Positions 1-29,025 of a stretch of 33,135 nucleotides of DNA are shown in pieces. Every line of letters starts with the position of its first letter. Positions within the stretch are counted from its first letter, which is position 1. Under the pieces are notes generated by a model. That model did no database searches. It was not told the origin of the DNA and worked only from the letters and a program-made list of their open reading frames with translations. Source of the DNA: Fibrobacterota bacterium (GTDB lineage Bacteria > Fibrobacterota > Fibrobacteria > UBA11236). The stretch spans positions 1 to 33,135 of the forward strand of contig JAEKLQ010000070.1 of the NCBI GenBank assembly GCA_019509785.1. Direction: 5' to 3'. Position numbers and translations under genes: made by a program.

Positions 1-3000
1 GTTACCCATCGCAATCCCAAGACCTGCGCGGATGCCTTGGATCAAGGGAAGATCGACTTCGATCAGAACGGGGCGGTCCGCATCCTGTGGGCGCACAATA
101 TCACTATCGATGGGATCGCGGTGGACGCCGGGGGCGCGGCGCCATTCAACAATCCCAACGTCTGGGGCGACGGGGTGACCTGCAATGGCCAACTCTATCC
201 CCTCTTCCACGGCAATGCGGGCATTGCCATCTATATCTCCGGCGCGGTTACCATCCGCCGTTGCGAAATCAGTAACGGTTACTTCGGGATCGCCGTGAAG
301 GATCGCAACCAGGGCGGCGCCTTCGCCAATTTCAATCCGGCCGATCTCGCGAAGAACAACATCGTGCCCTTGTCCGGATTCGGCCGGGTCGGAAACCATA
401 TCTTCGAGCGGAACCGCATCCACAACAATAGCTGGGGATTCTTTTCCGAATCGGATTGGGATTTGGGGAACACCGTGCGCTACAACCTGATCTACGAGAA
501 CCATCATGCCACCGCGGCCGCGGCCGCGGCAGTAAAGGCTCTGAGCTCGGAGGGCGCCAACCAGCCGGGTGGGGCGTTCATGTTCAAAGACGTGATGCTC
601 ACCCCGTGGGCGATCTACAACAACACCTTTTGGCATAACAACACGATCTTCGCGGGCGGCTATAGGCCGGGCGCGCAACACCTCATCTTCAACAATATCT
701 TCGCCACCCCGGCCGAATACTGGTCTGCCAACGTAGCGTTCCCCAACTCTTTCATGGAAATGACGCCCTTCTTCGTCAACCGGATGCATAACAGCCTCTT
801 CGCGGCGCAAATCGACCCGCCCAAACTGGATAGCCAAAAGGTGCAGGCGCAGCAATACGACCAGGCCACGCAAAAGCAAGTGGTGGCGGATTCAACGCCC
901 AAGTTCTACCGTACGCTCCGGATCATGAACCAAATGGGCGAGCCGGCCAAGGCGGACATCACCATCAATCTCACCTTGAACATGTCCACCGGTCCGGTCG
1001 TCGTGCCCCAGACCCTCACAGGCGCGATCCTGCCCGGCGCCCAGATCATAAGCGCGACCGATGCCTTTCCGGCTTCGGCCAACGTGCGATGGTACGAAAT
1101 CAAGTTCAAGTCCACCGATCCCGCCAGTCCCGACTTCCTCTCGCCGGATTGGGATGATCCTGACGTGAAGAAATTCGTGATGAATGCAGGTTGGCCCGAG
1201 GCCGGCATCTACAATTCTGATGGGCAGATCGCGGACATTGGGGCGATTCCCTCCGTCTCGCGTCACACTGCGGACGTCATCATCCGTCCGCTTTCCCCTG
1301 CCCTCCTGACCGGCACCAACGGCATCCTGAGCTTCGATCTCCAATCGGTGAACGGCGATCTGTCCGGCCTCAAGGTGAAGCACATCGCCCTGGTGAGGAA
1401 GCTTCCCGTCCTTCTGACTGGCTTCGGAGGTGCTACGGCCTTGGTCGTTCCCCCGTCGATCCCCCTTACCGTGGCGGATCCCAGCCTGAAGATGGGTTCC
1501 AATACCTTGACCATCGCGGGCTTGCCCGCGCAAATCGATACCTCCACTTACGCCTTCGTCGAAATCATCGCGGAGGGAACGGCGTCAAACGGAAAACTGG
1601 CGACGACGAACGTGGGATTCATCCCGTACCGCAAGCTCGATTACAAGTTCCTGGTCGAAGTGCTCGATGTGAACACCGCGGCCAAAATCAGCAGCGTGAA
1701 GGTGGGAGAGACGGCGGGCTTGCGCATCACTCCGCAATCCCTGAACGGCCAGCTATTCAATAATACGGTTTCACCGGTGGAAGTGCATCTCGCCTCCGGA
1801 TCCGACTTGCTCACCCCTCCCTATCCTCCGGCCACGAAGATCGTGGTGGATCAGGTCGTTGGCGTAACGACCAAGCAAATCCTGTTCACCAAGGTTCCCG
1901 CCGGAAACATCGAATACGTGGCCGTCTCGGGCATTTGGAAGCAAGGGGATAAAACCGTAGCCTTCTACGGCATCTCCCAAGGCGTGACGATCCTGCCCGG
2001 AGATCCAGCCAAGATCGCCTTCCAAAATCCGCCTTCGAAGATCACTTCCCCCGGCGCCGCGCCGGTGATCGACCCTGGTACGCTCTATCCGGTCACCGTC
2101 GAAGTGCGCGATATCTTCGACAACCCGGTGGGCGGGTCCGCGACCGTGACCATCAAGAGCAACAATCCCACCATCGGCGATATCGATGGCCCGACCACGG
2201 CGGTCACCGATTCCAATGGCGTCGCCAAGTTCAACGCCAAGGTGACGACGGGCGACTTGAACCAAACCTTCGAATTGGAAGCGTCCATCCCGAACAAACC
2301 TTCGGACAAAGCGGATCTGAAAGTGGGCAAGGCCCGTGATCGCTTGTGGATCCTGTATGGGGATGCGGCGAAGTACGATGCCAACGCCGAATTACGCGGC
2401 GCCGCGGGCCAGCGCTTGGCGGTGACCATCCGCGCGGGCAAGGATCCGGACACAAAGCTTACCGACCGCCAGACCGACGTCGTCGTCACGGGTTCGACCG
2501 GACTGGCCATCTATGCGGGAGCCAACGATGCGAATCCTTCTTCCGCCTTCAAGCTTACGAACGGCGAAGTGGTGATTTATGTTACGGGCCTCCGGGCCGT
2601 GGACAACGGGTACCTGAACGTCGACCCGGCCACCACCGACAATACCATCCTCGGCGGAACCCGCTCTAAGATCTATTTCACCTTCACCCCCGGCGCGGTC
2701 CTATCCGCTTCCTTCCATGCCGACAATGGCCAAGCCGCCGTGGATAGGGTCGAGATCACGTTCCGCGCCGATCTCAAACGGGCGCCTGATTCAATCGCCC
2801 TGTCCTGGCCCTCCGCGGGCGCCAATGCGAAGGTGGAAAAAACGGGAATCACCTGGAACGCGGCCTCTCCGCGCCAGGTCACCGTTAAGCTCGCCGATCC
2901 TTTCCCGGCCGGACTCTCCGCGGGCACGGGCGCCGGGACGGTATATATCTTCGATCCCGCCACTCCGGAAATTCCCGTGCAGGCCATGGCCTTTACCGGA

Positions 3001-3909
3001 GCCGATTCCGTCGGGCCGTTATTGGACTCCGGCGTCGTGCTCGAGAAGCTGGTTACCACGGGCCAGGACACCCTGTTCATCGGATTCAACGAGAAGATCG
3101 ACGGTTCCCGTCTGACGGGCCAATCCCTGCAGCTCATCAAACCCGGAGCGGCGCCCATCGTTCTCACCATCCTTACCGCGGAAGAGATCCCTGGCAAGGG
3201 ATGGCGTATAACCTTGAACGATCTCGGCGCCCAGGCGCCGGCGGGCGGGGATTCCCTGAAGATCAATGCCTCGGGCCCCTTGACCGATGCGGTCGGCAAC
3301 CATGCCCATCCGCTCAACCGGCCCATCGCGCTCAAGCTCAAGAACAAACCCAGGCCGGCCCTGCTGACGGTCCGCTTTGATCAGCCCTACGAAAAGGTGA
3401 AGAGCGATCCGCAGTCCCCCGATTTCGTCATCCTCTCCGGAAACGCCGATTCTTCCTGGACGCCGGTCATGGGCAGCGTAGCGGGCCGCCCGGCGCAGGA
3501 TTGCCATCAGTTGGCGTGCGGCGGGCCCGTGCAAAGCGTCCCCGGGGCCGGGATTGATAGGCCGGCCATCACCCTCGAGACCGATCGAGCCGTCCAGTAC
3601 AGCGTAACCATCTTCGACAACCTGGGCGAGTTCGTGAACGGATTCACCGGCGAGATCACGAACGCCCAGCTCGGTTTGGACGACCGTAACCTACCGGTTA
3701 CGGGAGGGAGCCCTCTTTTCACCCGCGGGGCCCAGGGCAAATTCACGTTGAAGATCGGTTGGAACGCGAAGTCGACCACGGGTTCCCGGGCGGCGACGGG
3801 CGTCTACATCGCCAAGATCACGGCCGTGAGCACGGCTGAAGACGGGGATGGCAAGCCGACCCGCCTGGCGCAATCGCAAGCGGTCCGGTTCGGGCTGATG
3901 CGGAATTAA
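1..3909 (+). CDS. Large secreted beta-helix / Ig-like surface protein, 5' truncated
   Basis: The frame is open from base 1 to the TAA at 3907, so the true start lies upstream; the TTG at 37 has no ribosome site and the frame continues before it. About 1,300 residues are visible. The first ~250 resemble a right-handed parallel beta-helix (recurrent N-I-F / N-N-T-F rungs, as in pectate-lyase-like folds). Several beta-sandwich regions follow, including an invasin-like Ig module around residues 660-770 ('VEVRDIFDNPVGG', 'TDSNGVAKF'). The last ~110 residues resemble a FlgD-like or sorting-type C-terminal domain ('SVTIFDNLGEFV', 'ATGVYIAKI'). A poly-alanine stretch near residue 160 comes from three CCGCGG copies. 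I infer an exported, surface-attached protein; a carbohydrate-active role is possible but no catalytic residues were identified. It converges on the next gene with a 4-bp overlap. Confidence 0.85.
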   Translation, partial: VTHRNPKTCADALDQGKIDFDQNGAVRILWAHNITIDGIAVDAGGAAPFNNPNVWGDGVTCNGQLYPLFHGNAGIAIYISGAVTIRRCEISNGYFGIAVKDRNQGGAFANFNPADLAKNNIVPLSGFGRVGNHIFERNRIHNNSWGFFSESDWDLGNTVRYNLIYENHHATAAAAAAVKALSSEGANQPGGAFMFKDVMLTPWAIYNNTFWHNNTIFAGGYRPGAQHLIFNNIFATPAEYWSANVAFPNSFMEMTPFFVNRMHNSLFAAQIDPPKLDSQKVQAQQYDQATQKQVVADSTPKFYRTLRIMNQMGEPAKADITINLTLNMSTGPVVVPQTLTGAILPGAQIISATDAFPASANVRWYEIKFKSTDPASPDFLSPDWDDPDVKKFVMNAGWPEAGIYNSDGQIADIGAIPSVSRHTADVIIRPLSPALLTGTNGILSFDLQSVNGDLSGLKVKHIALVRKLPVLLTGFGGATALVVPPSIPLTVADPSLKMGSNTLTIAGLPAQIDTSTYAFVEIIAEGTASNGKLATTNVGFIPYRKLDYKFLVEVLDVNTAAKISSVKVGETAGLRITPQSLNGQLFNNTVSPVEVHLASGSDLLTPPYPPATKIVVDQVVGVTTKQILFTKVPAGNIEYVAVSGIWKQGDKTVAFYGISQGVTILPGDPAKIAFQNPPSKITSPGAAPVIDPGTLYPVTVEVRDIFDNPVGGSATVTIKSNNPTIGDIDGPTTAVTDSNGVAKFNAKVTTGDLNQTFELEASIPNKPSDKADLKVGKARDRLWILYGDAAKYDANAELRGAAGQRLAVTIRAGKDPDTKLTDRQTDVVVTGSTGLAIYAGANDANPSSAFKLTNGEVVIYVTGLRAVDNGYLNVDPATTDNTILGGTRSKIYFTFTPGAVLSASFHADNGQAAVDRVEITFRADLKRAPDSIALSWPSAGANAKVEKTGITWNAASPRQVTVKLADPFPAGLSAGTGAGTVYIFDPATPEIPVQAMAFTGADSVGPLLDSGVVLEKLVTTGQDTLFIGFNEKIDGSRLTGQSLQLIKPGAAPIVLTILTAEEIPGKGWRITLNDLGAQAPAGGDSLKINASGPLTDAVGNHAHPLNRPIALKLKNKPRPALLTVRFDQPYEKVKSDPQSPDFVILSGNADSSWTPVMGSVAGRPAQDCHQLACGGPVQSVPGAGIDRPAITLETDRAVQYSVTIFDNLGEFVNGFTGEITNAQLGLDDRNLPVTGGSPLFTRGAQGKFTLKIGWNAKSTTGSRAATGVYIAKITAVSTAEDGDGKPTRLAQSQAVRFGLMRN
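512..529 (+). repeat. Three tandem CCGCGG hexamers inside the beta-helix gene
   Basis: Three perfect head-to-tail copies of the palindromic hexamer CCGCGG lie in frame and encode part of an alanine run. A slippage-prone unit of 6 bp would change the protein by two residues at a time without shifting the frame. Confidence 0.8.
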
Positions 3910-5516
3910 GGCCGGTATCCCACCGTGAAGGATACGGTTTGGTGCTCGAAGTCGGTGAGGGTGCTCCCGGGCTTCAGGCCGTAATCCAAATCTGCCGGTG
4001 CGATGAATTCGGGCTGGATGCTGAAATTCGCTTTCAGTATATCCACGGACAAGGTCGAATCCATGCCCTCCAAGCTCCAATCAGCCGTCTTATTCCCCCA
4101 CACATCGCAAAGTTCGATGTCGAGCTGGTCTTGGAATTCCGTGTCTCGCTGGCGTAGGAAACCGGTTCCGGAGTTCCCGCTGATGATGGTATTGAGGATG
4201 CTTAATCCGGAATGGGGGACGCTCACGTTGATGCCATCGCCGCCGTTGTCGGCGATGGTGCAGTTCCGCATTCCCCCGTTCGGGATATTCATATCCAAGC
4301 CGGAGCCCGAATTGCGCGCCAGCAAGACGTTTTTCATCTTGAAGGTGACGGACTGGTCGTTCTTTCCCTGTATGAACGCGCCTTTGGCGTTTTGGATCAG
4401 GCGGCAATCCGTCAGGCTTACGTCGCTGTCGACCACCCTCAATCCATAGGAAGTGCTGCTGTCGAAGACGCATCTCAGGAACGTGATATTCTTGCAGGTC
4501 GCCACCAATTGCACGCCGCCGCGGAAGACGATGTCCTGGAATTGGATGTTTTGGTTGGCGCTGAGGATCATCGCGCTGCTCGAGTGGAAGGGTACGCGGA
4601 GCACGGTACGTTCGCCCGGATATCCCCGCACCACGATGGGATTTTCCGGAGTACCGGAATGGTTGAAGCGGAGATCGACCGAATAATCGCCCTTAGCGAT
4701 CAACAAGGTGTCCCCCGCCTGCGCCCCGGCGGTCCCGGCGAGTACCGAACCGGCGCTGTCCAAGGGCGGCTTATCGTGGGACTGCTTTACGAACCGGATG
4801 GAATCGTTGTAATCGGTTACCACTGCATTCGCCGCTTGCCGATCCAGGTTATAGGCCCCCACGGCCGCATTGCTATCCGCGACGGCGGCGTTCCCTTTGC
4901 CGATGCTGGCGCGTAACAGATCGAAGGATGTAATGTCCCGGGCGAAAGGCGCGAGCACCGAGTCGCTGAAATGCGTAGGGTAGATCGAGAGGGGAGAATG
5001 GTCCGCGTTGGCCGTGGCCATGAACGAGGTCACCGTGGCCATCTGGGCCTGCAGGTTGCTCCGCCCCACGTCGAAGCCGGCGTAAGGGCCGTAGGTCTTC
5101 AGGGTGTCCAGGAACACGAAAAATTGCAATGCGACGAGGGAATCCGGCGGCGCGGTAAGATTGCCGGACTCGGCGGCGGCGTTGTCCTTAACCCTCTGCG
5201 CGTTAATCGCCCGCTGCTTCGCGTTATTCGAAATGATATCCGCATTCCCTAGGGAATCCTTCCGGAATGCGTCGGCGAACCCCGCGATCATGGACGCGTA
5301 CCCTGAGTCCACGGCGGCCAAAGTTTTAAGCTGGGACTCTAGTTGTTTGCGGACGGTGCCGGCGGGGACGTCGCCCCCGTTCTCCGGATCGAAGGGATTC
5401 GTCCGTTCGATGCACGAAAGGGCCAGCGAGGCCGCGCACAATGCCGCGGAGGCGCGGAGTACGCCCGCAAGGAAGCCTCCGAGCCCCCGCCGATTCGGAA
5501 TGCCGATGCGGATCAT
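3906..5516 (-). CDS. Parallel beta-helix lipoprotein
   Basis: 536 residues from the ATG at 5516. A more upstream ATG at 5651 would put 45 non-signal-like residues in front and overlap the divergent gene, so 5516 is preferred. The N-terminus is a type II signal peptide ending in 'LALSC' (Cys35), followed by 'NPFDPE', a tether motif seen in lipoproteins of Fibrobacterota-like bacteria. Residues ~40-270 look helical and Ala/Asp-rich. Residues ~275-500 are parallel beta-helix rungs ('NIQFQDIVFRGG', 'NITFLRCVFDSS', 'MRNCTIADNGGDGI', 'ILNTIISGNSGTGF'), as in right-handed beta-helix repeat proteins. Location is probably the outer membrane or periplasm. No catalytic motif is recognisable. Its stop codon shares TTAA with the stop of the convergent beta-helix gene. 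A perfect TATAAT sits 7 bases before the ATG, with no Shine-Dalgarno sequence. Confidence 0.85.
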   Translation of the reverse strand: MIRIGIPNRRGLGGFLAGVLRASAALCAASLALSCIERTNPFDPENGGDVPAGTVRKQLESQLKTLAAVDSGYASMIAGFADAFRKDSLGNADIISNNAKQRAINAQRVKDNAAAESGNLTAPPDSLVALQFFVFLDTLKTYGPYAGFDVGRSNLQAQMATVTSFMATANADHSPLSIYPTHFSDSVLAPFARDITSFDLLRASIGKGNAAVADSNAAVGAYNLDRQAANAVVTDYNDSIRFVKQSHDKPPLDSAGSVLAGTAGAQAGDTLLIAKGDYSVDLRFNHSGTPENPIVVRGYPGERTVLRVPFHSSSAMILSANQNIQFQDIVFRGGVQLVATCKNITFLRCVFDSSTSYGLRVVDSDVSLTDCRLIQNAKGAFIQGKNDQSVTFKMKNVLLARNSGSGLDMNIPNGGMRNCTIADNGGDGINVSVPHSGLSILNTIISGNSGTGFLRQRDTEFQDQLDIELCDVWGNKTADWSLEGMDSTLSVDILKANFSIQPEFIAPADLDYGLKPGSTLTDFEHQTVSFTVGYRP

Positions 5517-5523
5517 GGGTATA

Positions 5524-5529
5524 ATTATA
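5524..5529 (-). promoter_or_regulatory. -10 element TATAAT placed for a leaderless mRNA
   Basis: On the minus strand TATAAT occupies 5529 to 5524, exactly 7 bases before the ATG at 5516. Transcription would then begin at or next to the start codon. No purine-rich ribosome site precedes the ATG, and no -35 hexamer is recognisable at the usual distance. Confidence 0.5.
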
Positions 5530-5592
5530 TCTAATCCCGCCCGTGGCCGGCCGGGGTCGCTATATTGTCGCCTACGGAGCGGAGTGAAGTCG

Positions 5593-6525
5593 ATGGAATC
5601 GCGGTGGGGAAGGATGATAATGGCGGCCCTTGGCCTCGCCTGCGCGGCCATTCCGCGCGCCGAGCAGGCTTCCGGGGCGCCCCTGTCGGAGTGCGCCTCC
5701 CCCAGTAAAACCCTTTTCTACACCCCGCGCGCCCGCTCCGAATCGCTCCTGCCCCCCGGATTCTCGGACAGCTTATGGTCGCAACTGGATGGACCCGTCC
5801 GGGAATTGGGCTATTGCCTGAAGGCCATGCCCATCGGGAAAGTCTCCGGCGATACCAGCCGGAACGGCGATAATCTTTTCCTGGAAGCCTGGGCCCGGGA
5901 CGAGGGCGGAGGGACCATATCGGTTTCCATAGCGGCCCTGCGTTTGCGGGAAGTAGCGGCAGGAAAGCTGCCCGAAGCGGAGGCGAGGCCGTTGGTGTAT
6001 TTCCGTTTCTCCCCGTTCGAGGCGGTCGGCATGTATAGCGTACTCGCCAAAAAAGTCGCCGAGAACCTGCGTAGCCAGTACGTCGCCGTGCTATTGATCC
6101 GATCGCATCCCGCGGGCGCGGTGGTGCATGCGGCCTCGGGATTGGAAGGCTCGACTCCGGTGGAATGGGTCGTGCCCTTAGGCGAACTGCCGATCACCGT
6201 CTCCATGCCCGGATATCTGGAAGCCCGGCGGAATCTCGATTTGGGAGTCCCCGGGCAGCACACCTATGACCTGCAATTGGCGAAACGCCGATTCTACAAT
6301 TCCAAGTTCATCTACCCTACCCTGGCGGCAGGCGCCGTGTCCGCGGCCGCCTTCGTCCTGGAGAACCATTATTACGGTATTTACCAGGCTTTAGGTCCGG
6401 CGGACAGCCGGGATAGGCCCGAGGCCTTCGGCCAAAACTTCCGGACCGCGAAAAACTACGAACGTATTGGGTATACCTCCCTGGCTTTGACCTGGCTGGG
6501 CCTCACCCTATGCTTCACCTTTTGA
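5593..6525 (+). CDS. Exported PEGA-domain protein with two C-terminal membrane helices
   Basis: 310 residues from the ATG at 5593, preceded by GGAG about 8 bases upstream; the frame stays open much further upstream but only antisense to the lipoprotein gene. The N-terminus (residues 1-28) looks like a signal peptide. Residues ~166-230 match a PEGA domain ('IRSHPAGAVVHA', 'LGELPITVSMPGYLEARR'), a small beta-sandwich common in envelope proteins. Residues ~239-257 and ~291-309 are hydrophobic and probably span a membrane. Residues 30-165 are not recognised. A second PEGA domain occurs in the FecR/TPR protein two genes downstream, so the two products may act in the same envelope process; that is inference. 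The gene is divergent from the beta-helix lipoprotein. Confidence 0.8.
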   Translation: MESRWGRMIMAALGLACAAIPRAEQASGAPLSECASPSKTLFYTPRARSESLLPPGFSDSLWSQLDGPVRELGYCLKAMPIGKVSGDTSRNGDNLFLEAWARDEGGGTISVSIAALRLREVAAGKLPEAEARPLVYFRFSPFEAVGMYSVLAKKVAENLRSQYVAVLLIRSHPAGAVVHAASGLEGSTPVEWVVPLGELPITVSMPGYLEARRNLDLGVPGQHTYDLQLAKRRFYNSKFIYPTLAAGAVSAAAFVLENHYYGIYQALGPADSRDRPEAFGQNFRTAKNYERIGYTSLALTWLGLTLCFTF

Positions 6526-6555: not shown

Positions 6556-6584
6556 GCCGAATTCGGCAAATTTCCGAATATAAT
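6556..6584 (+). promoter_or_regulatory. Palindrome and -10 element upstream of the ECF sigma gene
   Basis: A perfect 12-bp palindrome GCCGAATTCGGC (6556-6567) overlaps a second inverted repeat, TTCGG-(7)-CCGAA (6562-6578). A perfect TATAAT follows directly at 6579-6584. No good -35 is seen 16-18 bases upstream. The arrangement suits an operator over a promoter and would leave a ~70-base leader before the ATG at 6664. Confidence 0.4.
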
Positions 6585-6663
6585 GCCGTTCCGACCTTTC
6601 CGCACGGTATTTATGAACTTTTCGCATGGGCTTTACACTAAGTAAATCGAGGGATGTAAGCGA

Positions 6664-7227
6664 ATGAGCAATCTGAGCGAACCCAGTAAGCAGCTCCTGA
6701 GCGAATGCAAAGCCGGCAACCAGGCGGCATTCAAGGAAATATTCCACATGTACCGGAGCTACGCCTACAACCTCGTCTATAAGATCACCGGGCCCGAAGG
6801 GGAACATGAGGATCTGGTGCAGGAAGCCTTCTTCCAAATGTACCTGTCCCTCAAGTCCTTCCAAGGCAACTCGTCATTCAAGACCTGGTTCCACCGGGTC
6901 ATCATCAATACCTGCACGGCGCGTTGGCGCTTCCAGGAAGCCGGCAAGCGCATCTCCGCCAAGAAAACCACCAGCTTGGAGAGCATGGATTACGAACTGC
7001 CGAGCCGGGACGAAGGCATCGCCAAAGAGGTGGAGCTGAAAAACCTGGTCGAGTTGGCCTTGGCCCAGCTGGACGATAAGTTGCGGATACCGGTGGTATT
7101 GAACATCTACTCGGATATGGATCTTTCGGAAATCGCCTTGGCCTTGGACATCCCCGAAGGCACCGTCAAATCGAGGCTCTTTACCGCGCGGCAGAAAATA
7201 AAGGAATATCTGGATACCCTGGAATAA
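6664..7227 (+). CDS. ECF-type RNA polymerase sigma factor
   Basis: 187 residues, the normal size for an extracytoplasmic-function sigma-70 factor. Region 2 spans ~22-90: 'FKEIFHMYRSYAYNLVYKI', then the core-binding 'EDLVQEAFFQMYLSL' and 'SSFKTWFHRVIINTC', which contacts the -10 element. Region 4 spans ~130-185, with the helix-turn-helix 'LSEIALALDIPEGTVKSRL' for -35 recognition. Region 3 is absent, as expected for the group. The start follows a GAGGGA-like site. The next gene begins 5 bases after the stop and encodes a membrane protein with a FecR domain, the usual arrangement of sigma factor and anti-sigma regulator. The regulon cannot be told from the window. Confidence 0.95.
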   Translation: MSNLSEPSKQLLSECKAGNQAAFKEIFHMYRSYAYNLVYKITGPEGEHEDLVQEAFFQMYLSLKSFQGNSSFKTWFHRVIINTCTARWRFQEAGKRISAKKTTSLESMDYELPSRDEGIAKEVELKNLVELALAQLDDKLRIPVVLNIYSDMDLSEIALALDIPEGTVKSRLFTARQKIKEYLDTLE

Positions 7228-7232
7228 GCATT

Positions 7233-9281
7233 ATGAACGCTCCCAACCACAACCCCGGCGCCCCTCGCGATCCCGACCATCGCTTGCGCCTCTTCGTGTC
7301 CCTGCTGAAGCAGGACGTGGAAGTCCCGCGCGACTTCTCGAAAATGGAGAAGGCGTTGCTGGAGCGCATACAGAAGGCCGATGCCCTGGGGCCCTTCGCC
7401 GTTCTCAAGGTCGAAGAGACGCCTCCTCCCGGCTTCTTCGATAAGGTGGAAGCCGATCTGATGACCCGCTTCCAAAACCATCGCGAGTACGAGCAACCCG
7501 TGAACGACGTGATCGCCGCTCCGGTCAAGCCCTCGGGCATGGAACTGCATCGCATCGAAAGCCGCCTGGATGAGCGTATCGACCTGGCCCGTCGTTTGGA
7601 ACCCTGGGAGCTGGTCGTCAAGGCCGGCGAAGTCTTGCCGCTGGGCCGCTGGGAAGCCATCGAAGAGTCGCTCTTCGCGCGCATCGAGCAGCACCGCAAA
7701 CTGGATTTGATCGCGCCCGCCCACACCTGGCTCGGCTTGGGCCTGTTCCGTTCGACCCCGCTCCGCATCGCGGCCGGCTTGGCCCTCGCGGCCGTCGCGT
7801 CCCTCGGGGCCTGGAAGTCCCTGCGCCGTCCGTCCGTCCCTTTGGAAACCCTTGTGTATCAGGCCCAGGGCGCCACCGCCAGCGAGATCGCCTCCGCCTT
7901 CCCCCAGGGCAGGCCCGACCTCCATGGCCGCGCGGATATCCTGTCCCGCGACGACGGGGCGATGACCTTGGTGAACCAGCGCGGTTTCGTGGAGATGCAT
8001 AACGGTTCGCGCTTGCAGATCGAGGAAGCCGATCAGAAGAAGATCCGCTATCGCGTCGCCTTCGCCGGCCACGGCCACGCGGCGCGCGGAAACGTCACCT
8101 TCTTCGTGAGCAAGCGGAAAGCCGGCGAGAAGTATCAAGTGGCCACGCCCGATTACCGTATCGACGTGGTGGGGACTTATTTCCGCGTGCGCCCGGATCT
8201 AGGGGGCCGCGTCGCCACCTCGGTGCTGGAGGGCAGCGTCAAAATCCATTCCGATGTCTATGGCGATTTCGAAGTGGCCGCCGGCCAAAGCCTGGTCTAC
8301 GATGCGGCCACGGAGCGCTATCGCGTGCAGGACGGCGGGGCCAGCGTGCGCCGCGAGGATATCGAGACCGTGCCCGGGGTGGACGAGCTGAGCCACTACG
8401 GCGTCGTGACCGTGACTTCGAACGAGCCTGGGGCCGAAGTGCGCGTGGATGATCGCTTCAAAGGCGCCACGCCCCTGGTAGTGCTGCTGCCGCCCGGCCG
8501 CCATTCCTTGCAATTGTCCAAGGACGGGCATCCCCCTTTGGATACGGCCGTGACCGTGGCGTTCGGAGGCACTCACCGCTTGGCCTTGGCCCTTCCCGAG
8601 GCCGCCAAGCACATCGCCAAAACCCTCCCGGCTCCCGCCCGCCCCTCCGCCGTCAATTACTCCCCGGCCCCCGCACCGGCGCCTCAACCCATCCAGGCCG
8701 CGCCTTCTCAAGCCGAGGAAGCCGACCTCATCTACCGTAAGGCGGAGCAAATCCAGTCCGCCGATTGGCAAGGCGCCATCCAACTCTATCGTCAGGTGCT
8801 GGAAAATCCGGACGCCCCTCCGTTACGTAAGGATGACGCGTTGTTTTCGGTAGCCCGCTTGCGTGCCGAGCACGAGAAGGATAAGACCCAAGCCCGCGAG
8901 GACTTCCTGCGCTATCTGGCCATGTACCCGGACGGCGCCTTCGCCGGCGAGTCATGGCTGCGGCTGGCCGAGCTCGAAGTGGGAAGGAACCAGGGCAAGG
9001 CCATCGAGTATTACCTGCGCAGCATGGAGAAGATGCCGCATCATCCCCGCATGTCCGAGATGCAGCACCGCGTGGGACTGCTATACTTGCAGAACAAGCG
9101 TTACGATGAGGCCATTGCCATGTTCCGGCAAAGCCTGGGCAATATCCTTTACGCCAACGAATCCGAGAAGCGTAAGATTTACCAGAGCCTGTACCGGGCT
9201 TTGGTCGCCAAAGGCGACAACCTCGCGGCCGGGGAAATCGCCAAGGAATACCGCTTCCAGGACGATAGCGCCGGGAAGTAA
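7233..9281 (+). CDS. Transmembrane FecR / PEGA / TPR protein, probable anti-sigma regulator
   Basis: 682 residues. Residues 1-170 are cytoplasmic and contain four degenerate repeats of ~35 residues with the pattern F/W/L-x2-(M/V/I)-E-x2-L-x2-R-(I/F); the glutamates fall at 39, 73, 109 and 144. A single membrane helix spans ~177-194. A FecR-type beta domain follows (~230-355; 'ATPDYRIDVVGTYFRV', 'VLEGSVKI'), then a PEGA domain (~390-455), a Pro/Ala linker (~465-492) and tetratricopeptide-like helices (~495-675; 'AIQLYRQVLENPD', 'YDEAIAMFRQSL'). Single-pass FecR proteins typically hold an ECF sigma factor at the membrane and respond to an envelope partner. Here the cytoplasmic anti-sigma part is not the zinc-binding zf-HC2 type; no Cys/His set is present. 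TPR repeats fused to the periplasmic end suggest a protein-protein sensor. The anti-sigma role is inferred from position. Confidence 0.88.
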   Translation: MNAPNHNPGAPRDPDHRLRLFVSLLKQDVEVPRDFSKMEKALLERIQKADALGPFAVLKVEETPPPGFFDKVEADLMTRFQNHREYEQPVNDVIAAPVKPSGMELHRIESRLDERIDLARRLEPWELVVKAGEVLPLGRWEAIEESLFARIEQHRKLDLIAPAHTWLGLGLFRSTPLRIAAGLALAAVASLGAWKSLRRPSVPLETLVYQAQGATASEIASAFPQGRPDLHGRADILSRDDGAMTLVNQRGFVEMHNGSRLQIEEADQKKIRYRVAFAGHGHAARGNVTFFVSKRKAGEKYQVATPDYRIDVVGTYFRVRPDLGGRVATSVLEGSVKIHSDVYGDFEVAAGQSLVYDAATERYRVQDGGASVRREDIETVPGVDELSHYGVVTVTSNEPGAEVRVDDRFKGATPLVVLLPPGRHSLQLSKDGHPPLDTAVTVAFGGTHRLALALPEAAKHIAKTLPAPARPSAVNYSPAPAPAPQPIQAAPSQAEEADLIYRKAEQIQSADWQGAIQLYRQVLENPDAPPLRKDDALFSVARLRAEHEKDKTQAREDFLRYLAMYPDGAFAGESWLRLAELEVGRNQGKAIEYYLRSMEKMPHHPRMSEMQHRVGLLYLQNKRYDEAIAMFRQSLGNILYANESEKRKIYQSLYRALVAKGDNLAAGEIAKEYRFQDDSAGK

Positions 9282-9984: not shown

Positions 9985-10060
<76 letters not shown>

Positions 10061-10120: not shown

Positions 10121-11038
10121 ATGAGCCCCGCAACCGCCCTCCCCAGCCCGCCCATTCCCGAAGAAGACGGATATCTGGCCCACCTTCGCTTGGAAAAACG
10201 GCTGAGCCCGGAGACGGTAGCGGCGTACCAGTCGGACTTGCGATTGTTCTTCCGGCAGGCGTCGGGATTGGAAGCCATGACGCTGGCCCATTTGCGCGCC
10301 TTCCTGCGCGGCGTAGCGGAGCTGGGCTTCGCGCCTGCCAGCATCTCCCGTTACCTTTCCGCCTTGAAGAGTTACTCCGCCTGGCTCGCCGAAGAAGGGC
10401 ATCTCGCGGTGGACCCCGCGCGCGTCCTGAAAGGCCCCAAGCAGCAGCGCTACAAGCCCTCCAGCCTGAGTCATGCGGAGATGGACGCCTTGTACGATTC
10501 CTTGGAAGCGAAAGCGGCGGAAGGGGGCCCGGCATCCTTACGCGATCTGTGCCTGATCGAATTGCTGTACGGCCTGGGGCTGCGGATTTCCGAAGGCATA
10601 GGATTGAAACTCGATCACGTGAACCTTACCGAGGCCGCCGTGCTGGTGCAGGGCAAGGGAAGCAAGCAACGCTTGGTGCCATTGGGCGGCAAGGTAAGCG
10701 GTAGCTTGCGTCGCTACCTGGAGATCTGGAACGGGACGGGACGCACCGACACCGTATTGCTCAACCGCTTCGGGCGTCCGCTCTCGCGCATGGGAGCGTG
10801 GAAAATCGTGCAGCGCATTTGCCTGGAAGCGGGCATTACGACGCCGGTTTCCCCGCATACCTTCCGGCATACCTTCGCGACCCATCTGATTATGGCAGGG
10901 GCCGATTTGCGCTCGGTGCAGGAGATGCTGGGCCATACCGATATCAGCACCACCCAGATTTACACCCACCTCGATCAAGACTACCTGCGCGAGGTGCATA
11001 AGAGTTTCCATCCGCGCAACCGGGGCGGAAAGCCCTAA
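10121..11038 (+). CDS. xerD: Tyrosine site-specific recombinase, XerD type
   Basis: 305 residues, matching chromosomal Xer recombinases, which resolve chromosome dimers at dif during division. The N-terminal SAM-like core-binding domain spans ~15-105 ('RLSPETVAAYQSDLRLF'). The catalytic domain spans ~115-300 with all expected residues: Arg155 ('GLGLRISE'), Lys179 ('QGKGSKQRLVPLG'), His246 and Arg249 ('SPHTFRHTFATH'), His272 ('MLGHTDISTTQIYTH') and nucleophile Tyr281. The end 'REVHKSFHPR' favours XerD over XerC. The tRNA beside it lies with its 5' end towards the gene, and no attachment-site repeat is seen, so this looks like the housekeeping enzyme rather than an island integrase. XerC remains possible. 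Confidence 0.88.
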   Translation: MSPATALPSPPIPEEDGYLAHLRLEKRLSPETVAAYQSDLRLFFRQASGLEAMTLAHLRAFLRGVAELGFAPASISRYLSALKSYSAWLAEEGHLAVDPARVLKGPKQQRYKPSSLSHAEMDALYDSLEAKAAEGGPASLRDLCLIELLYGLGLRISEGIGLKLDHVNLTEAAVLVQGKGSKQRLVPLGGKVSGSLRRYLEIWNGTGRTDTVLLNRFGRPLSRMGAWKIVQRICLEAGITTPVSPHTFRHTFATHLIMAGADLRSVQEMLGHTDISTTQIYTHLDQDYLREVHKSFHPRNRGGKP

Positions 11039-22800: not shown

Positions 22801-23000
22801 GCATGCAGGCCTGCCCCACGGGTGCCATCGTTTTCGGCGACCTCAACGACGGTTCTTCGCGGGTCGCGATCTTGCGCAAGGTCCCCTGGAAATTCGCCGT
22901 GCTCGGGGAATTGAATGCCCGTCCGCGCATTCGCTATCTGGCCAAGATTTGGAACCAGCACCCCGCTTTGCCGGCGGACACCGCGAAGTCCATGGTATGA
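19875..23000 (+). CDS. actB: Alternative complex III subunit ActB, iron-sulfur / molybdopterin-like fusion
   Basis: 1041 residues starting in an ATGA overlap with actA. The twin-arginine-like segment '[17 protein letters not shown]' (residues 64-80) precedes Cys84; as in other ActB proteins it may be a Tat signal with lipid anchoring. Residues ~85-790 resemble the molybdopterin oxidoreductase fold, which in ActB does not bind the cofactor. The C-terminal part (~795-1020) is the ferredoxin-like module with four Cys groups: '[11 protein letters not shown]' from residue 810, '[13 protein letters not shown]', '[20 protein letters not shown]', and 'CTFCVQRI' with '[10 protein letters not shown]'. 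These would bind three [4Fe-4S] and one [3Fe-4S] cluster in known complexes. It conducts electrons between ActC and the haem subunits on the periplasmic side. Confidence 0.96.
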
Positions 23001-23083
23001 AAGTAACGGTGTGAAGAGCCCTGGGATGGAAAGCCACGGTATGCAAGGCCATGAGAGGAAAGGCCCGGTAATGGAAACCTCCG
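22994..23083 (+). repeat. Degenerate ~30-bp tandem repeat at the actB-actC junction
   Basis: Two adjacent 30-base blocks (22994-23023 and 23024-23053) match at about 21 of 30 positions, both carrying G-rich/ATG-containing phrases such as GGAAAG(C/G)CC and ACGGT(G/A)TG. A weaker third block reaches to 23083. The array fills the only sizeable gap within the act genes and contains several spare ATG codons. The actC ribosome site and start lie in the third block. Confidence 0.4.
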
Positions 23084-24432
23084 CTTCCCCGGCCCCGGTA
23101 GTCTTGGGACAACCGACCTATGCGGAGATCGGGGAGCAAATCGGTTCCATCCCCTTAACGCGGCGCCTGCTGCCCGGCTGGGTCCTGGCCTTCCTAGCGG
23201 CCTCCGTCCTTTTCATGGGCCTCATGTCGGCGGTGGGCTGGCTGCTGGCCCGGGGCGTGGGCATCTGGGGCATCGACATCCCCGTAGCTTGGGGCTTCGC
23301 CATCGTCAACTTCGTCTGGTGGATCGGCATCGGTCATGCGGGCACTTTCATCTCGGCCATCCTCCTATTGCTCCGCCAGCCCTGGCGTACCTCCATCAAC
23401 CGGCTCTCGGAAACCATGACCTTGTTCGCCGTGAGTTGCGCCGGCCTTTTTCCTTTGCTTCATCTGGGCCGGCCCTGGCTCTTCTATTACATGCTCCCCT
23501 ACCCCAACACCATGACGCTCTGGCCGCAGTTCCGCAGCGCGCTGGTATGGGACATATTCGCCGTTCTCACCTACCTGACCATCTCCATCCTGTTCTGGTA
23601 TACGGGCATGCTGCCGGATCTGGCTTCCATGCGGGACCATGCGCGCAATCCGCTGGTGAAACGCATCTATGCCGTCCTGTGCCTGGGCTGGCGCGGGTCG
23701 GCCCTGCATTGGCATCGCTGGGAAAGCGGTTACATCCTCATGGCCGGGCTTTCCACGCCCCTGGTGGTCTCCGTGCACAGCACGGTCAGCGCCGACTTCG
23801 CCACCGCCATCGTTCCCGGATGGCATTCCACCATCTTCCCGCCCTTCTTCGTGGCCGGCGCCATCTATTCCGGCTTCGCCATGGTGCTGACCTTGCTCAT
23901 CCCCATCCGCGCCTATTATCGCCTCCATTCCCTCATCACGGAACGGCATCTGGAGGCCATGGCCAAGATGCTGCTGGTGACGGGGTGGATCGTCATCTTC
24001 GGATACGTGGCGGAAAATTTCATCGCCTGGTACAGCGGCGATCCTTTCGAGATGTCCATCTTCTTCAAGCGCGCCACCGGATGGTACCGCGTATCCTTCG
24101 CGTTCATGATTTTCTGCAATGTGATCTCGGTGCAATCCCTATGGTCCGGATCCTTGCGGCGCAACGTCCTTTTCCTATGGGCCTTATCGCTCGTCATCAA
24201 CGTGGGCATGTGGTTCGAGCGCTTCGTGATCGTGGTAACGAGCCTTTCCCAAGACTACCTCCCGTCTTCTTGGGCCCCCTATAAGCCGACGTTCTGGGAT
24301 CTGCTCACATTCGCGGGCACCTTCGGCCTGTTCCTGGGAGGCATGGCCCTGTTCCTGCGCGTACTCCCCGCGATTTCCATGTCCGAAATGCGCGAACTCC
24401 TTGACCGGCAGGAGAGGGGGGAAACGGCATGA
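23071..24432 (+). CDS. actC: Alternative complex III subunit ActC, NrfD-like quinol-binding membrane protein
   Basis: 453 residues from the ATG at 23071, chosen because AGAGGAA lies 10 bases upstream; an in-frame ATG at 23026 would add 15 residues. About ten membrane helices are visible, from 'LLPGWVLAFLAASVLFMGL' to 'FAGTFGLFLGGMALFLRVLP', in the polysulfide-reductase NrfD/PsrC fold. Family motifs include 'VWWIGIGHAGTFISAILLLL', 'HLGRPWLFYYMLPYPN' and 'GMWFERFVIVV'. ActC holds a quinol site near the periplasmic face beside ActB. Overlaps actD by ATGA. Confidence 0.95.
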   Translation: METSASPAPVVLGQPTYAEIGEQIGSIPLTRRLLPGWVLAFLAASVLFMGLMSAVGWLLARGVGIWGIDIPVAWGFAIVNFVWWIGIGHAGTFISAILLLLRQPWRTSINRLSETMTLFAVSCAGLFPLLHLGRPWLFYYMLPYPNTMTLWPQFRSALVWDIFAVLTYLTISILFWYTGMLPDLASMRDHARNPLVKRIYAVLCLGWRGSALHWHRWESGYILMAGLSTPLVVSVHSTVSADFATAIVPGWHSTIFPPFFVAGAIYSGFAMVLTLLIPIRAYYRLHSLITERHLEAMAKMLLVTGWIVIFGYVAENFIAWYSGDPFEMSIFFKRATGWYRVSFAFMIFCNVISVQSLWSGSLRRNVLFLWALSLVINVGMWFERFVIVVTSLSQDYLPSSWAPYKPTFWDLLTFAGTFGLFLGGMALFLRVLPAISMSEMRELLDRQERGETA

Positions 24433-25007
24433 CCGCGGGGCGCGGGCCGGGATATGGGCCGGATGGGCGGGGCCTGGAGCCCGATCTGTATGGAGTCATG
24501 GCGGCCTTCGATTCGCCCGAAGCCATCGCCGCCGCCGCCCGGCGCGCGCGCGCGGAAGGCTATTCCTCTCTGGACGCCTTCACGCCATTTCCGGTAGCCG
24601 AACTCAAGGAGGCCTTGGGCCATCGCGATCGCAAGGTGCAGGGGACCATGCTGATGGGCGGAATCGCCGGCGGCCTTATCGGACTGGCCCTGCAAACCTA
24701 TGCCACCGTCCTCCATTATCCCCTCAATGTCGGGGGCCGTCCCGATTTCAGCTGGCCGGCCTATATCATCATCATCTTCGAACTGACGGTGCTGACCTCG
24801 GGGCTGTCCGGCCTGATCGCCATCCTCGCCTTCAATGGCTTGCCCAGGCCCCATCATCCCCTGTTCGCCGTACCCGGTTTCGAACGCGCCACGCGCGATC
24901 GTTTCTTCCTCCTGATCGAATCGCGCGATCCTCGCTTCGGGGCCGGCACCGCCCGATCCTTCCTATGGGAACTCGGGCCCGCGGAGGTGATCGATGTCGC
25001 GGCATAG
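24429..25007 (+). CDS. actD: Alternative complex III subunit ActD (DUF3341)
   Basis: 192 residues, starting in an ATGA overlap with actC. An N-terminal cytoplasmic part ('YGVMAAFDSPEAIAAAARRA', 'YSSLDAFTPFPVAELKEAL') precedes two membrane helices (~72-94 and ~109-135) and a C-terminal segment ('ERATRDRFFLLIES'), the standard DUF3341 layout. It carries no cofactor motif; in solved complexes ActD packs against the ActC/ActF membrane core and is structural. Its 3' end overlaps actE by 14 bases. Confidence 0.93.
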   Translation: MTAGRGPGYGPDGRGLEPDLYGVMAAFDSPEAIAAAARRARAEGYSSLDAFTPFPVAELKEALGHRDRKVQGTMLMGGIAGGLIGLALQTYATVLHYPLNVGGRPDFSWPAYIIIIFELTVLTSGLSGLIAILAFNGLPRPHHPLFAVPGFERATRDRFFLLIESRDPRFGAGTARSFLWELGPAEVIDVAA

Positions 25008-25569
25008 CATCAATATTCGCTTGCTGGCGGCCTCGGGACCCAAGGCGTTCTATCTCCTCGCGGGCTTATGCCTGGCGGCCTGCTCCAACCACGAGATGCA
25101 TCAACAAGTACGGTTCGATCCCCTGGAGCCCGCGCCCGCTTGGCCCGACAGCCAATCGGCCCTGAGCCCGCCCATAGGCGCGGTTCCGCGCGATAGCGAG
25201 GCCGTGGTCGCGGATACCTCCCGCTTCCCTGGCCCACCGGACCGGCAATTGCTCGAGCGCGGGCGCGAGCGCTATGTCATCTATTGCGCCCCCTGCCATG
25301 GAGCCTACGGCGACGGGGACGGGATGATTACGCGGCATGGCTTCCCCCATCCCCCTTCCTATCATGAGGCGCGGCTCCTGGCCGCCGCCCCGGGCCACTT
25401 CTATCGCGTCATCACCGACGGGTTCGGCATGATGTATTCCTATGGCTATCGCGTGCCGCCGCCGGACCGCTGGGCAATCATCGCTTATATACGCGCCTTG
25501 CAACTCAGCCGGCGGGCCACCCTCGGGGACGCTCCGGACGCGGAACGCCGGCGCTTGGAGGCGCTATGA
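24994..25569 (+). CDS. actE: Alternative complex III subunit ActE, monohaem cytochrome c lipoprotein
   Basis: 191 residues. A lipoprotein signal ends at 'LCLAAC' with Cys30 as the lipid-modified residue. 'NHEMHQQVRFDPLEP' follows, typical of ActE. One haem c site CAPCH (Cys98, Cys101, His102) with a probable Met ligand in 'GFGMMYSY' (147/148). It is membrane-tethered on the periplasmic side and is thought to hand electrons from ActA towards the oxidase. It overlaps actD by 14 bases and actF by ATGA. Confidence 0.95.
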   Translation: MSRHSINIRLLAASGPKAFYLLAGLCLAACSNHEMHQQVRFDPLEPAPAWPDSQSALSPPIGAVPRDSEAVVADTSRFPGPPDRQLLERGRERYVIYCAPCHGAYGDGDGMITRHGFPHPPSYHEARLLAAAPGHFYRVITDGFGMMYSYGYRVPPPDRWAIIAYIRALQLSRRATLGDAPDAERRRLEAL

Positions 25570-26711
25570 TGCGGACCGCGCGCGACGGCGCCTATGCGGC
25601 CTTGGCCCTCGGCCTGCTGGGTACCCTGGCCTGCGCGGCGGGGCTTTTTTTCGACTCCGCCCAGGCCCTGCGCTCCTGGCTTTTCGCCTTCATCTTCTGG
25701 CTGGAACCGGCCCTCGGATGCCTGGGCTTCCTGATGCTGCATAACCTGGTGGGAGGATCGTGGGGAAAGAAAGTACGGCCCTACTTGGGGGCGGGCGCCT
25801 TGACCTTGCCCTGGCTGGCCCTGATCTTCGTGCCCCTCGCTTTCGGCCTGCGCCACGTCTATCCCTGGGCCGCCCCCGATGCGATGGAAGATCCCCTTTT
25901 GCGGCATAAGCTTCCTTATCTGAACCTGCCTTTCTTCCTCATCCGCGCGGTCTTGTATTTCGTGATCTGGGGAGGGCTGGCTTGGCGGCTGGCCGGGCGG
26001 GCTTCCCGGACAGCGGAGCGCACGCTAGGAGACTCGAAGGCATCGGCCCGCGCCAATGCCTGGTCCGGGCCCGGCGTGGTTTTGCTCGCCTTCGCGGGCC
26101 AGTTCGCGTCCTATGACTGGACCATGTCCCTGGAGCCGCATTGGTATTCCACCATGTACGGATTCCTGTTCCTGGCCCAGGCCGCGCCCGCCACCTTGGC
26201 GCTATTGCTCTTGACGGCCGTCTTCGCGCGCAGGCGGGACGCGGCCGCGCCCGATCTCGATCCCGCCGGATTCCGCGATCTCGGTTCCCTATTACTAGCC
26301 TTCTTGGTGATCTGGATCTACGCATCCTTCTTCCAATACATGCTGATCTGGTTCGGCGATCTTCCCCATGAAATCTCCTGGTTCGTGAACCGCAATGCGG
26401 GGGCTTGGAGCTGGATCGCGCGCGCCTTCGTCGTCTTCTACTTCGCGGTCCCGTTCTTCTTGCTCCTGTTCCGCTCCAACCGCAGCAGCCCCAGGCGCCT
26501 GGCCTGGCTGGGCGGATGGCTGCTCTTCGCCCATTTGGCCTACATGTTCTGGTTCATCACCCCATCCTACCGGAAATCGGGATTCGGCATCAGCTGGCTG
26601 GATGCGGCGGCGTGGATCGCCGTAGGCGGATGGTGGCTGGGCGCGTATCTCTGGGGCCTGGCAGGCGTGCCGCATGCCGCCGTGGCGGAAAGTCCACATG
26701 ACACCCACTGA
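25566..26711 (+). CDS. actF: Alternative complex III subunit ActF, NrfD-like membrane protein
   Basis: 381 residues beginning in an ATGA overlap with actE. About ten hydrophobic helices are visible, including 'SWLFAFIFWLEPALGCLGFL', 'LPYLNLPFFLIRAVLYFVIW' and 'LGSLLLAFLVIWIYASFFQY'. The motifs 'QFASYDWTMSLEPHWYSTMY' and 'MLIWFGDLPHEISWFVNR' are characteristic of ActF, the second NrfD-type subunit, which has no quinol site and has been proposed to take part in proton movement. It ends 14 bases inside the next gene. Confidence 0.95.
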   Translation: MMRTARDGAYAALALGLLGTLACAAGLFFDSAQALRSWLFAFIFWLEPALGCLGFLMLHNLVGGSWGKKVRPYLGAGALTLPWLALIFVPLAFGLRHVYPWAAPDAMEDPLLRHKLPYLNLPFFLIRAVLYFVIWGGLAWRLAGRASRTAERTLGDSKASARANAWSGPGVVLLAFAGQFASYDWTMSLEPHWYSTMYGFLFLAQAAPATLALLLLTAVFARRRDAAAPDLDPAGFRDLGSLLLAFLVIWIYASFFQYMLIWFGDLPHEISWFVNRNAGAWSWIARAFVVFYFAVPFFLLLFRSNRSSPRRLAWLGGWLLFAHLAYMFWFITPSYRKSGFGISWLDAAAWIAVGGWWLGAYLWGLAGVPHAAVAESPHDTH

Positions 26712-27192
26712 TTCAGGCCCGTCGCAGCCTTCGTTGGAAGCCCAACGGGAGGTGAAGGACATGGGCCATTTCTGGGTGGCGGTTTTCGGAGGCGTTCTAT
26801 TCCTGGGCCTGATCACCTTGCTCGCGTTCCTGTGGGGATTGCAGCCCGTACTCGGTCGTCCTTCCGATCCGCCGGCCCTGCATCCCAACGCCATCGCGCA
26901 TGCCGGCGACAGCGCCACGGTAATGCGATTCAGCTCCCGCGCGCCCGGATTGTTCCCGGACCCTCCCGGCGATTTGCGCCGCTTCGGCGCGACCCAGGCG
27001 GCCCGGGCCCCGGCCTACGGCTGGGTGGATCGGCAATCGGGCATCATCAGCATTCCCGTGGACCAGGCGATGGATCGCATCGTCTCGGAGGGCTGGCCGA
27101 ATTGGGTTTTCCCCGGGGTGACGGGAGGGGCGGCGGCGCAACCGGTTACACCGGCGGAAGCGGAAGCCGCGGCGAAAGGAAACGCGCGATGA
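26698..27192 (+). CDS. Unnamed single-pass membrane protein between actF and sco
   Basis: 164 residues from the ATG at 26698, which overlaps the end of actF by 14 bases. One membrane helix (~25-48; 'FWVAVFGGVLFLGLITLLAF') is followed by a periplasmic part with the segment 'AYGWVDRQSGIISIPVDQAM' (~106-125) and an Ala/Glu-rich end. Proteins with a similar 'W-D-R/E-x-G-I-(I/V)-x-(I/L)-P-(I/V)-x-x-A-M' stretch are commonly found at this spot in ACIII-oxidase clusters, from family memory rather than a search. There is no haem or copper motif. A structural or assembly role linking the complex to Sco or the oxidase is an inference. It overlaps sco by ATGA. Confidence 0.8.
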   Translation: MTPTDSGPSQPSLEAQREVKDMGHFWVAVFGGVLFLGLITLLAFLWGLQPVLGRPSDPPALHPNAIAHAGDSATVMRFSSRAPGLFPDPPGDLRRFGATQAARAPAYGWVDRQSGIISIPVDQAMDRIVSEGWPNWVFPGVTGGAAAQPVTPAEAEAAAKGNAR

Positions 27193-28067: not shown

Positions 28068-29025
28068 TACCTTCTTCTCCCTCCCCCAGGCTTCGGCCAT
28101 CGCCGGCAAGGTGGATGGCCTGTTCCTGTTCCTGATCGGCCTCACGGGCCTGATCCTATTGGGAATTTCGTCGGCCATCGTCTTCCTGTCCTGGCGCTAC
28201 CACAAGTCGCGCGAACCCGATCGCAGCGCGCCCCCGCCCAGCCATCTTCTCCTGGAGGCCGCTTGGACCGGCATTCCCCTCGCGGTCTGCGCCGTCATCT
28301 TCATTTGGGGCACCAAGCTTTACCTCGACATGCATCCTTTGCGCGGGAAGGCGCGGGATGTCTACGTGGTCGGCATGCAATGGATGTGGAAGGTCCAGCA
28401 TCCCCAAGGCCCGCGCGAGATCAATTCCCTGCACGTGCCGGTCGGGGAGCGCATCCGCCTGGTGCTGACGTCCGAGGACGTCATCCACAGCTTCTACGTG
28501 CCCGCCTTCCGCATCAAGCAGGACGCCGTCCCGGGCATGTACACCTCCCTGGACTTCCAGGCGGTGCGCCCGGGAACTTACCATCTTTTCTGCGCCGAAT
28601 ATTGCGGAAGCCCCCATCATTCCATGGGCGGGGAGGTTGTCGTGATGGAACCGGCCGCCTTCGAGCATTGGCTGGCCACTGGAGGCGACCGGGGGCCGGG
28701 CGCCAGCGAAACCCTGGCCCAACGAGGCGCAGCAATCTTCCGAGCGCAAGGCTGCTCCGGCTGCCATGGCGTCTCCCCCACCGTCCGCGCGCCCGCGCTA
28801 GAGGGACTCTACGGCCGCAGCGTGCCTCTGCAAGAAGGAGGCCTAGTCCTCGCCGACGAAGCCTACCTCAGGGAATCGATCTATTTCCCGCAACGCAAAA
28901 TCGCCGCCGGATACGCGCCGGTGATGCCCTCCTTCCAGGGCCGCATCAATGAAGAAGACATGCTGGCCCTGATCGCCTATTTGCGTTCCCTCGGGGATGC
29001 GCGGAAAAACGGAGAGATACAATGA
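28060..29025 (+). CDS. coxB: Cytochrome c oxidase subunit II with fused cytochrome c (caa3 type)
   Basis: 321 residues. Two N-terminal helices (~20-44 and ~66-86) are followed by the cupredoxin domain. CuA ligands are complete: His143 ('DVIHSFYVP') and Cys178, Glu180, Cys182, His186, Met189 ('[12 protein letters not shown]'). The aromatic patch '[11 protein letters not shown]' (~105-114) is the usual electron entry. The C-terminal extension (~215-315) is a class I cytochrome c with CSGCH (Cys232, Cys235, His236), making this a caa3-type subunit that can accept electrons directly from alternative complex III. It overlaps sco by 8 bases and coxA by ATGA. Confidence 0.97.

Follow-up and report, generated by a model that had tools for sequence, protein, structure and literature searches.

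A probable autoregulated FecR-type sigma/anti-sigma switch for cellulose use in Fibrobacterota, predicted to act without a TonB transducer

Fibrobacterota include specialised plant-fibre degraders, and in the open literature (most subscription journals lie outside it) we found no sigma/anti-sigma regulator of their cellulases, no report of a system such as the one described here and no precedent for a protein joining FecR, PEGA and tetratricopeptide repeat (TPR) modules. The closest described systems come from other settings. In Clostridium thermocellum, polysaccharide-sensing SigI/RsgI sigma/anti-sigma pairs control their own gene as well as cellulase genes, and their promoters were first predicted by comparison (PMC4711584). 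For Leptospira, another report states that none of the TonB receptors carries the N-terminal extension to be expected for the FecR-like protein LIC_12756 (PMC12155086). In the ECF42 group of extracytoplasmic function (ECF) sigma factors, TPRs are fused to the sigma factor itself with no anti-sigma factor near (PMC6180224). Here we describe a gene pair in a stretch of 33,135 nucleotides (the window; contig JAEKLQ010000070.1 of a Fibrobacterota bacterium), in which the gene for an ECF sigma factor directly precedes that for a FecR-PEGA-TPR protein. The open reading frames (ORFs) and coordinates of the pair as first given were verified, and the view of the initial annotation, that an ECF sigma factor is coupled to FecR, PEGA and TPR modules on one chain, was borne out by the ORFs, Pfam and AlphaFold2; the N-terminal repeat units, the promoter and the regulon described below go beyond that annotation. 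From sequence evidence covering layout, conservation, a shared promoter and co-occurrence, we consider it highly probable that the pair is an autoregulated FecR-type ECF sigma/anti-sigma switch for cellulose use in Fibrobacterota that operates without a TonB transducer.

The promoter motif, for which the initial annotation had proposed a genome-wide search, was derived solely from the DNA upstream of the sigma gene in five genomes of the genus. These upstream sequences are divergent except for GAACYTT and CACTAA, with 17-18 bases between GAAC and CACTAA. The strict pattern GAACYTTN13-15CACTAA occurs once per genome, at the sigma promoter, in all five genus genomes that carry the pair, and is absent from the sixth, G002. 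On this pattern the sigma factor would have controlled only itself, a reading that was dropped once GAACYN16-17CACTAA found further sites, most of them before cellulose genes. Of 21 pair loci, 19 from five families have the element GAACY...YACTA upstream of the sigma gene; four of these 19 elements end in ACTAT and were found only with a relaxed pattern. Searching the six genus genomes with GAACYN16-17CACTAA yielded 35 sites (G001, 11; G003, 10; G004, 6; G000, 4; G005, 4; G002, 0). Twenty-seven of them lie in the sigma/cellulose regions, and two more precede genes of glycoside hydrolase (GH) families, GH8 for G001:C31 and GH16 for G003:C64. When YACTAA was allowed, 29 distinct sites and no reversed-pattern site were present in 238,594 distinct bases of fetched regions from five genus genomes. 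The genes within 300 bases after these 29 sites encode the sigma factor (5), GH8 (4), proteins resembling carbohydrate-binding module (CBM) family 11 (CBM11-like, 5), GH9 (3), CelD-GH9 (2), GH5 (1), GH1 (3), ABC ATPases (3) and beta-helix-like proteins (3). The GH and ABC identities come from Pfam and the CBM11-like genes from an alignment (A3); for the ABC and beta-helix-like genes we infer a cellulose role from the company they keep. The CBM11-like family matches the CBM11 of endoglucanase H (PDB 1v0a, E 6.1e-5), and some members also match CIA30 and the sorting tail of the type IX secretion system (T9SS). Several motif sites are arranged as divergent pairs, the sigma operon and cellulase genes share one contig in four genus genomes, and no motif site was found at eleven control loci. 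On another contig of the window's own genome, a site (C85:174-201, minus strand) precedes a start codon that reads like the start of the beta-helix-like protein of G005, which is the orthologue of the gene opening the window (1..3909); the ends of C85 and of the window contig do not overlap. The GH16 site and a further GH8 site lie outside the main cluster (L158 4298-4325; L160 4516-4543), perhaps reflecting a wider beta-glucan regulon.

Beyond the genus, 14 other genomes hold 103 sites, 31 of which fall in regions that were read. Thirty of the 31 stand before the sigma gene (9), a GH8, GH9, CelD-GH9 or CBM11-like gene (17), a family-5 solute-binding gene following the anti-sigma gene (3; families f11 and f12) or a GH5 gene (1; G092), and the remaining site (G091) has no clear gene within 300 bases. 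By coordinates, a further six of the 103 are located upstream of GH8 or CBM11-like genes, and the relaxed pattern adds sites before GH5 (G083) and GH9 (G096). The distribution of GH8 and CBM11-like genes was examined in at most 30 loci per search, with few candidates scored per genome. In this set, the 12 genomes with a GH8 subfamily defined by E<1e-200 all belong to the 22 carriers of the pair (P about 1e-12, relatedness ignored), and 11 of the 12 subfamily genes have a site before them; among the 18 other GH8 genes read, a site precedes 1 of the 5 from carriers (that of G064) and 0 of the 13 from non-carriers. Nine of the 12 subfamily genes are rows of an alignment (A2) chosen by motif and the G100 locus was also fetched by motif, so that G076 (with a site) and G005 (without) are the sole motif-independent GH8 cases. 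For CBM11-like genes, a site precedes 11 of 12 motif-chosen and 3 of 4 unchosen genes in carriers, compared with 2 of 14 in non-carriers (G075 and G069), where two of the 14 have no usable upstream stretch and the G069 site sits 600 bases inside a frame.

The 187-amino-acid (aa) product of the first gene matches Sigma70_r2 (54.3 bits) and Sigma70_r4_2 (41.4 bits) above the curated Pfam cut-offs and the sigma70-ECF model TIGR02937 at 93.2 bits (cut-off 42.9). Its orthologues in four of the five other genus genomes are 86-92% identical, and 5 bases separate the end of its gene from that of the 682-aa FecR-PEGA-TPR protein. In the latter, the Pfam matches to FecR, PEGA and TPR likewise exceed the curated cut-offs. 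Its AlphaFold2 model, made from 19 sequences, contains FecR beta, PEGA and TPR modules with a block predicted local distance difference test score (pLDDT) mostly of 80-95 and an overall predicted template modelling score (pTM) of 0.42. Foldseek matches of this model include the putative anti-sigma factor 4m0h and the cell-surface-signalling domain of PupR (6ovk), and a sequence profile places 4m0n/4m0h on the FecR part; the window's own genome has one FecR match in total. A single hydrophobic segment leaves about 176 residues on its N-terminal side and the FecR, PEGA and TPR modules on the other. One transmembrane segment was called in 24 of 25 homologues, the exception being that of G091 (L109). 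Counting lysine and arginine within 20 residues of each side, the N side is more basic in 18 homologues, equal in 4, including the window protein, and less basic in 2. FecR proteins have their N-terminal side inside the cell, and since the charge balance is mixed, the N-inside topology leans also on this background. The FecR-PEGA-TPR part is thus predicted outside the inner membrane, as first proposed, with no indication of a TPR part inside the cell.

Four stretches in the N-terminal arm of the window protein, near residues 33, 67, 104 and 138, share the pattern ..xIExxLxxRI. A hidden Markov model (HMM) of the unit counts 4 in the window protein and 3 in each of the remaining four proteins of the genus; the number is 3-4 for f11 and f12, 4-6 for f7 and 1-3 for f9, while the single f4 protein read has 1 and the type II paralogues described below have 0-1. 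One domain was counted in 500 shuffled arms; built from the same proteins whose units it counts, the HMM describes rather than tests the repeats. In pairwise shuffles of the window units (a to d), the observed score was reached 0 times in 2000 for b-d, 1 for a-b, 69 for c-d, 221 for a-c, 387 for a-d and 1792 for b-c, which supports the pairs a-b and b-d and not every pair. AlphaFold2 is weak for this arm (block pLDDT 45-77). By analogy with other anti-sigma factors, the N-terminal units would bind the sigma factor. An unlikely elaboration is a multivalent anti-sigma factor in which each of the 1-6 units would bind a sigma factor, or several would share one by avidity, so that the number of units would set the threshold and sharpness of cellulase induction, and the PEGA-TPR arm would read how far the cellulase machinery is exported or assembled, and not sugar.

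A genome search for the fused architecture and its neighbours, as the initial annotation had suggested, was performed by profile (E<=1e-10) and found FecR-PEGA-TPR relatives in 22 of 167 Fibrobacterota genomes. Anti-sigma orthologues are 63-77% identical in four of the five other genus genomes, and none was found in G002. The match covers all three modules in families f1 (5 genomes), f7 (8 of 9, a contig end truncating the match in G077), f11 (2) and f12 (1), where Pfam was run on two of the proteins and the rest are taken from the profile match. It lacks PEGA in f9 (2 genomes) and in G012 of f4, and is cut by contig ends in G014 (f4) and G095 (f10). The sigma gene lies directly upstream in all 21 loci having that side. 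The second PEGA protein that had been noticed just upstream of the pair was confirmed in the window (Pfam 29.3 bits, above the curated cut-off); its gene was detected by HMM in 10 of 21 loci (f1, f9, f11 and f12) and in none of the nine f7 loci, and in G012 a related protein was found by eye and aligned. Type II FecR-PEGA-TPR paralogues occur in f9, f11 and f12 (L113-L117), with their own ECF gene before them in 5 of 5, FecR, PEGA and TPR confirmed by Pfam in 2 of 5 and a weakly detected PEGA gene in 2 of 5; the motif was not found in the 450 bases before any of their five sigma genes. Other PEGA matches in the genus at first resembled paralogues but were set aside, as the proteins are kinase-like by eye (L027 7806-9725, L028 1419-3416, L030 9212-11116, L031 9298-11271 and L033 9555-11669). 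Such proteins, next to genes judged by eye to be VgrG-like, are present in five of the six genomes of the genus, G002 among them.

Several observations weigh against the cellulose switch. Genome-wide, the genus has 35 sites and 75 of the reversed pattern, with one mismatch allowed the counts are 20 and 68 (2 of the 20 in G002), and the 14 other genomes have 103 and 125; as the counts do not exceed the reversed pattern, they were rejected as proof, and the case rests on where the sites lie. The regions read for site context, in and beyond the genus, were chosen for having sites, and outside the genus gene context covers 37 of the 103 sites. For six of the 35 sites in the genus, no cellulose gene lies downstream (G003:C23 and G001:C8, C48, C67, C184 and C213, of which C8 and C213 are identical in sequence), and the relaxed pattern marks five places without an identified cellulose gene. 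The GH8 co-occurrence is partly circular because nine A2 GH8 rows and 11 A3 rows were picked by motif; no motif site was found before the GH8 gene of G005 or the CBM11-like genes of G080 (strict form) and G082, nor in the 450 bases before each of two f4 sigma genes. Finally, G075:C208 (L206) has a well-placed site before a CBM11-like gene in a genome (97% complete, 490 contigs) with no pair detected, where a pair may have been missed or lost or another sigma factor may act. Together with a loose first scan that gave 22 sigma-like candidates in G000, one passing E 1e-20, the counts and the G075 site would fit a different explanation, in which another regulator, or another ECF sigma factor with similar specificity, reads the sites and the linked pair governs nothing but itself or envelope stress. 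We regard this as quite improbable, given that 19 of 21 loci, in five families, have this motif upstream of the pair's own sigma gene, that G002 lacks the pair, exact sites and the GH8 gene alike, and that operon and cellulase genes share contigs in four genus genomes.

In the cellulose switch that we favour, the cytoplasmic repeat units would hold the sigma factor at rest, as in ECF/anti-sigma pairs generally. The FecR-PEGA-TPR arm in the periplasm, possibly together with the PEGA protein encoded upstream, would sense cellulose, cello-oligosaccharide or the condition of the cellulase machinery once exported, and this signal would free the sigma factor, probably by intramembrane proteolysis as in other FecR proteins. 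The freed sigma factor would then read GAACY-N15/18-YACTAA promoters, its own and those of cellulase and accessory genes, a step for which the sequence evidence is strong, and cellulose digestion would rise along with the switch itself. RseP-like genes with HE[FL]GH were noted by eye in L031-L033. As to the input, the TPR arm may act in protein-protein sensing. The cell-wall state suggested earlier was not borne out: because the promoter-defined regulon is one of cellulose digestion, the input is more likely one of the three cellulose-related signals given above. A related proposal, which concerns the signal and is compatible with a cellulose switch, is that the PEGA-TPR arm reports on the state of Tol-Pal, of secretion or of peptidoglycan and that cellulases follow surface contact or export load. 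The nearest NCBIfam models of the TPR arm are YbgF, CpoB, Tgl and T9SS PorW (every one below cut-off), CpoB is among the PDB profile matches of the TPR part, the upstream PEGA protein has weak TolB/PelC-like Foldseek matches and none better, and T9SS tails are above cut-off in two regulon proteins (L150, CBM11-like; L153, GH9), others being below. However, these fold and family links are all weak and no gene recognised as belonging to Tol-Pal or peptidoglycan functions follows any of the 29 sites in the genus, and we consider an envelope signal rather unlikely. Cell-surface signalling of the ordinary FecI/FecR/TonB kind, with its transducer encoded far away, would fit the FecR domain and fold and the Plug matches present in 22 of 22 carrier genomes, but appears extremely improbable. 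No TonB Plug, receptor or STN match was found in the 24 window ORFs scanned, in agreement with the initial annotation; no Plug lies within 20 kb of a pair among the matches listed, so that the homologues are not regularly found beside TonB receptors; and no FecR_N or FecR_C match was obtained in the 682-aa protein with Pfam at E<=0.1. All four STN matches of the window's own genome lie in three secretins, and thus no FecA-kind transducer was found there; STN matches were classified for this genome and counted for the others of the genus. The absence of a participating TonB transducer is therefore supported for the window's own genome, and the earlier suggestion of a route other than siderophore or TonB uptake is upheld. 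A TonB-receptor-looking ORF in G003 (L024 18026-19900) was rejected, having no Pfam match at E 0.001. ExbB/ExbD-looking genes, by eye, lie beside it.

Features of the sigma/anti-sigma locus and its neighbours, in window coordinates
Feature	Position	Strand	Evidence or remark
Large beta-helix-like secreted protein, main part; predicted regulon gene	1..3909	+	Pfam Beta_helix 21.4 bits, below cut-off
Beta-helix protein, lipoprotein-like start by eye; conserved neighbour	3906..5651	-	True start probably near 5516
Upstream PEGA gene: N-terminal leader, alpha/beta domain, PEGA, two long C-terminal helices (predicted membrane hairpin)	5593..6525	+	
Predicted autoregulated ECF promoter GAAC-N17-CACTAA	6615..6641	+	Five-genome comparison
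ECF sigma factor, 187 aa, regions 2 and 4	6664..7227	+	Pfam, NCBIfam, orthologues
Transmembrane FecR-PEGA-TPR anti-sigma factor, 682 aa	7233..9281	+	Pfam, profile search, AlphaFold2
Cytoplasmic arm, about four tandem units of ~35 aa (W..xLK...LP..xWE.iE..LF.RI), predicted sigma-binding	7290..7688	+	Approximate boundaries
Predicted single transmembrane helix, residues 177-197	7761..7823	+	Hydropathy; AlphaFold2 helix H177-197
FecR domain	7974..8243	+	Pfam 31.1 bits (residues 249-337), AlphaFold2, profile, Foldseek
PEGA domain	8400..8600	+	Pfam 50.1 bits (residues 390-456), AlphaFold2
TPR array, helices 493-672	8709..9248	+	Pfam TPR_6 28.4 and TPR_2 27.6 bits, AlphaFold2

No motif site was found before the minus-strand beta-helix gene next to the upstream PEGA gene. 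Elsewhere in the window, alternative complex III genes (NrfD, ActD and cytochrome c) and cytochrome oxidase genes (COX1, COX2 and COX3) occupy 22915-31225, pointing to aerobic respiration in this lineage. A tRNA-Lys(CTT) gene (9985-10060, minus strand) lies directly before a tyrosine recombinase gene (10121-11038), a layout as seen at integration sites, although the recombinase may instead be XerC/D-like.

The pair offers a candidate cellulase switch with a promoter and a target list in several Fibrobacterota families and, if the proposal is true, a case of FecR signalling without a TonB partner and with a repeat-array anti-sigma arm. It could be tested in cultured Chitinispirillaceae such as ANBcel5, described as cellulolytic (PMC11700989), if ANBcel5 carries the pair.

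As in FecI/FecR/FecA systems, including PupR and Leptospira LIC_12756, the ECF gene lies directly before that of a single-pass FecR-domain anti-sigma factor; unlike in those systems, no transducer was found, PEGA and TPR modules follow FecR, the N-terminal arm is a repeat array and the predicted targets are cellulases. The type II paralogues share the FecR-PEGA-TPR chain and the ECF gene, and differ by a short arm (0-1 unit) and by the lack of the motif before their sigma genes. With ECF42 the pair has in common the use of TPRs as a control module in an ECF system, except that here the repeats are on the anti-sigma factor, on the far side of the membrane. RsgI carries carbohydrate-binding modules, and no RsgI or CBM family match was found in the 682-aa anti-sigma factor with Pfam or NCBIfam. 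SigI/RsgI is similar in its cellulase regulon and in its autoregulation, here by promoter motif alone, and differs in that the sigma factor here is an ECF sigma and not a sigma-I, FecR-PEGA-TPR replaces RsgI and the phylum is another. The promoter is GAAC/YACTAA here and CNNAAA/CGAA for sigma-I6 (PMC4711584). In essence, the logic of the proposed switch resembles that of SigI/RsgI, and its parts are those of FecI/FecR minus the transducer.

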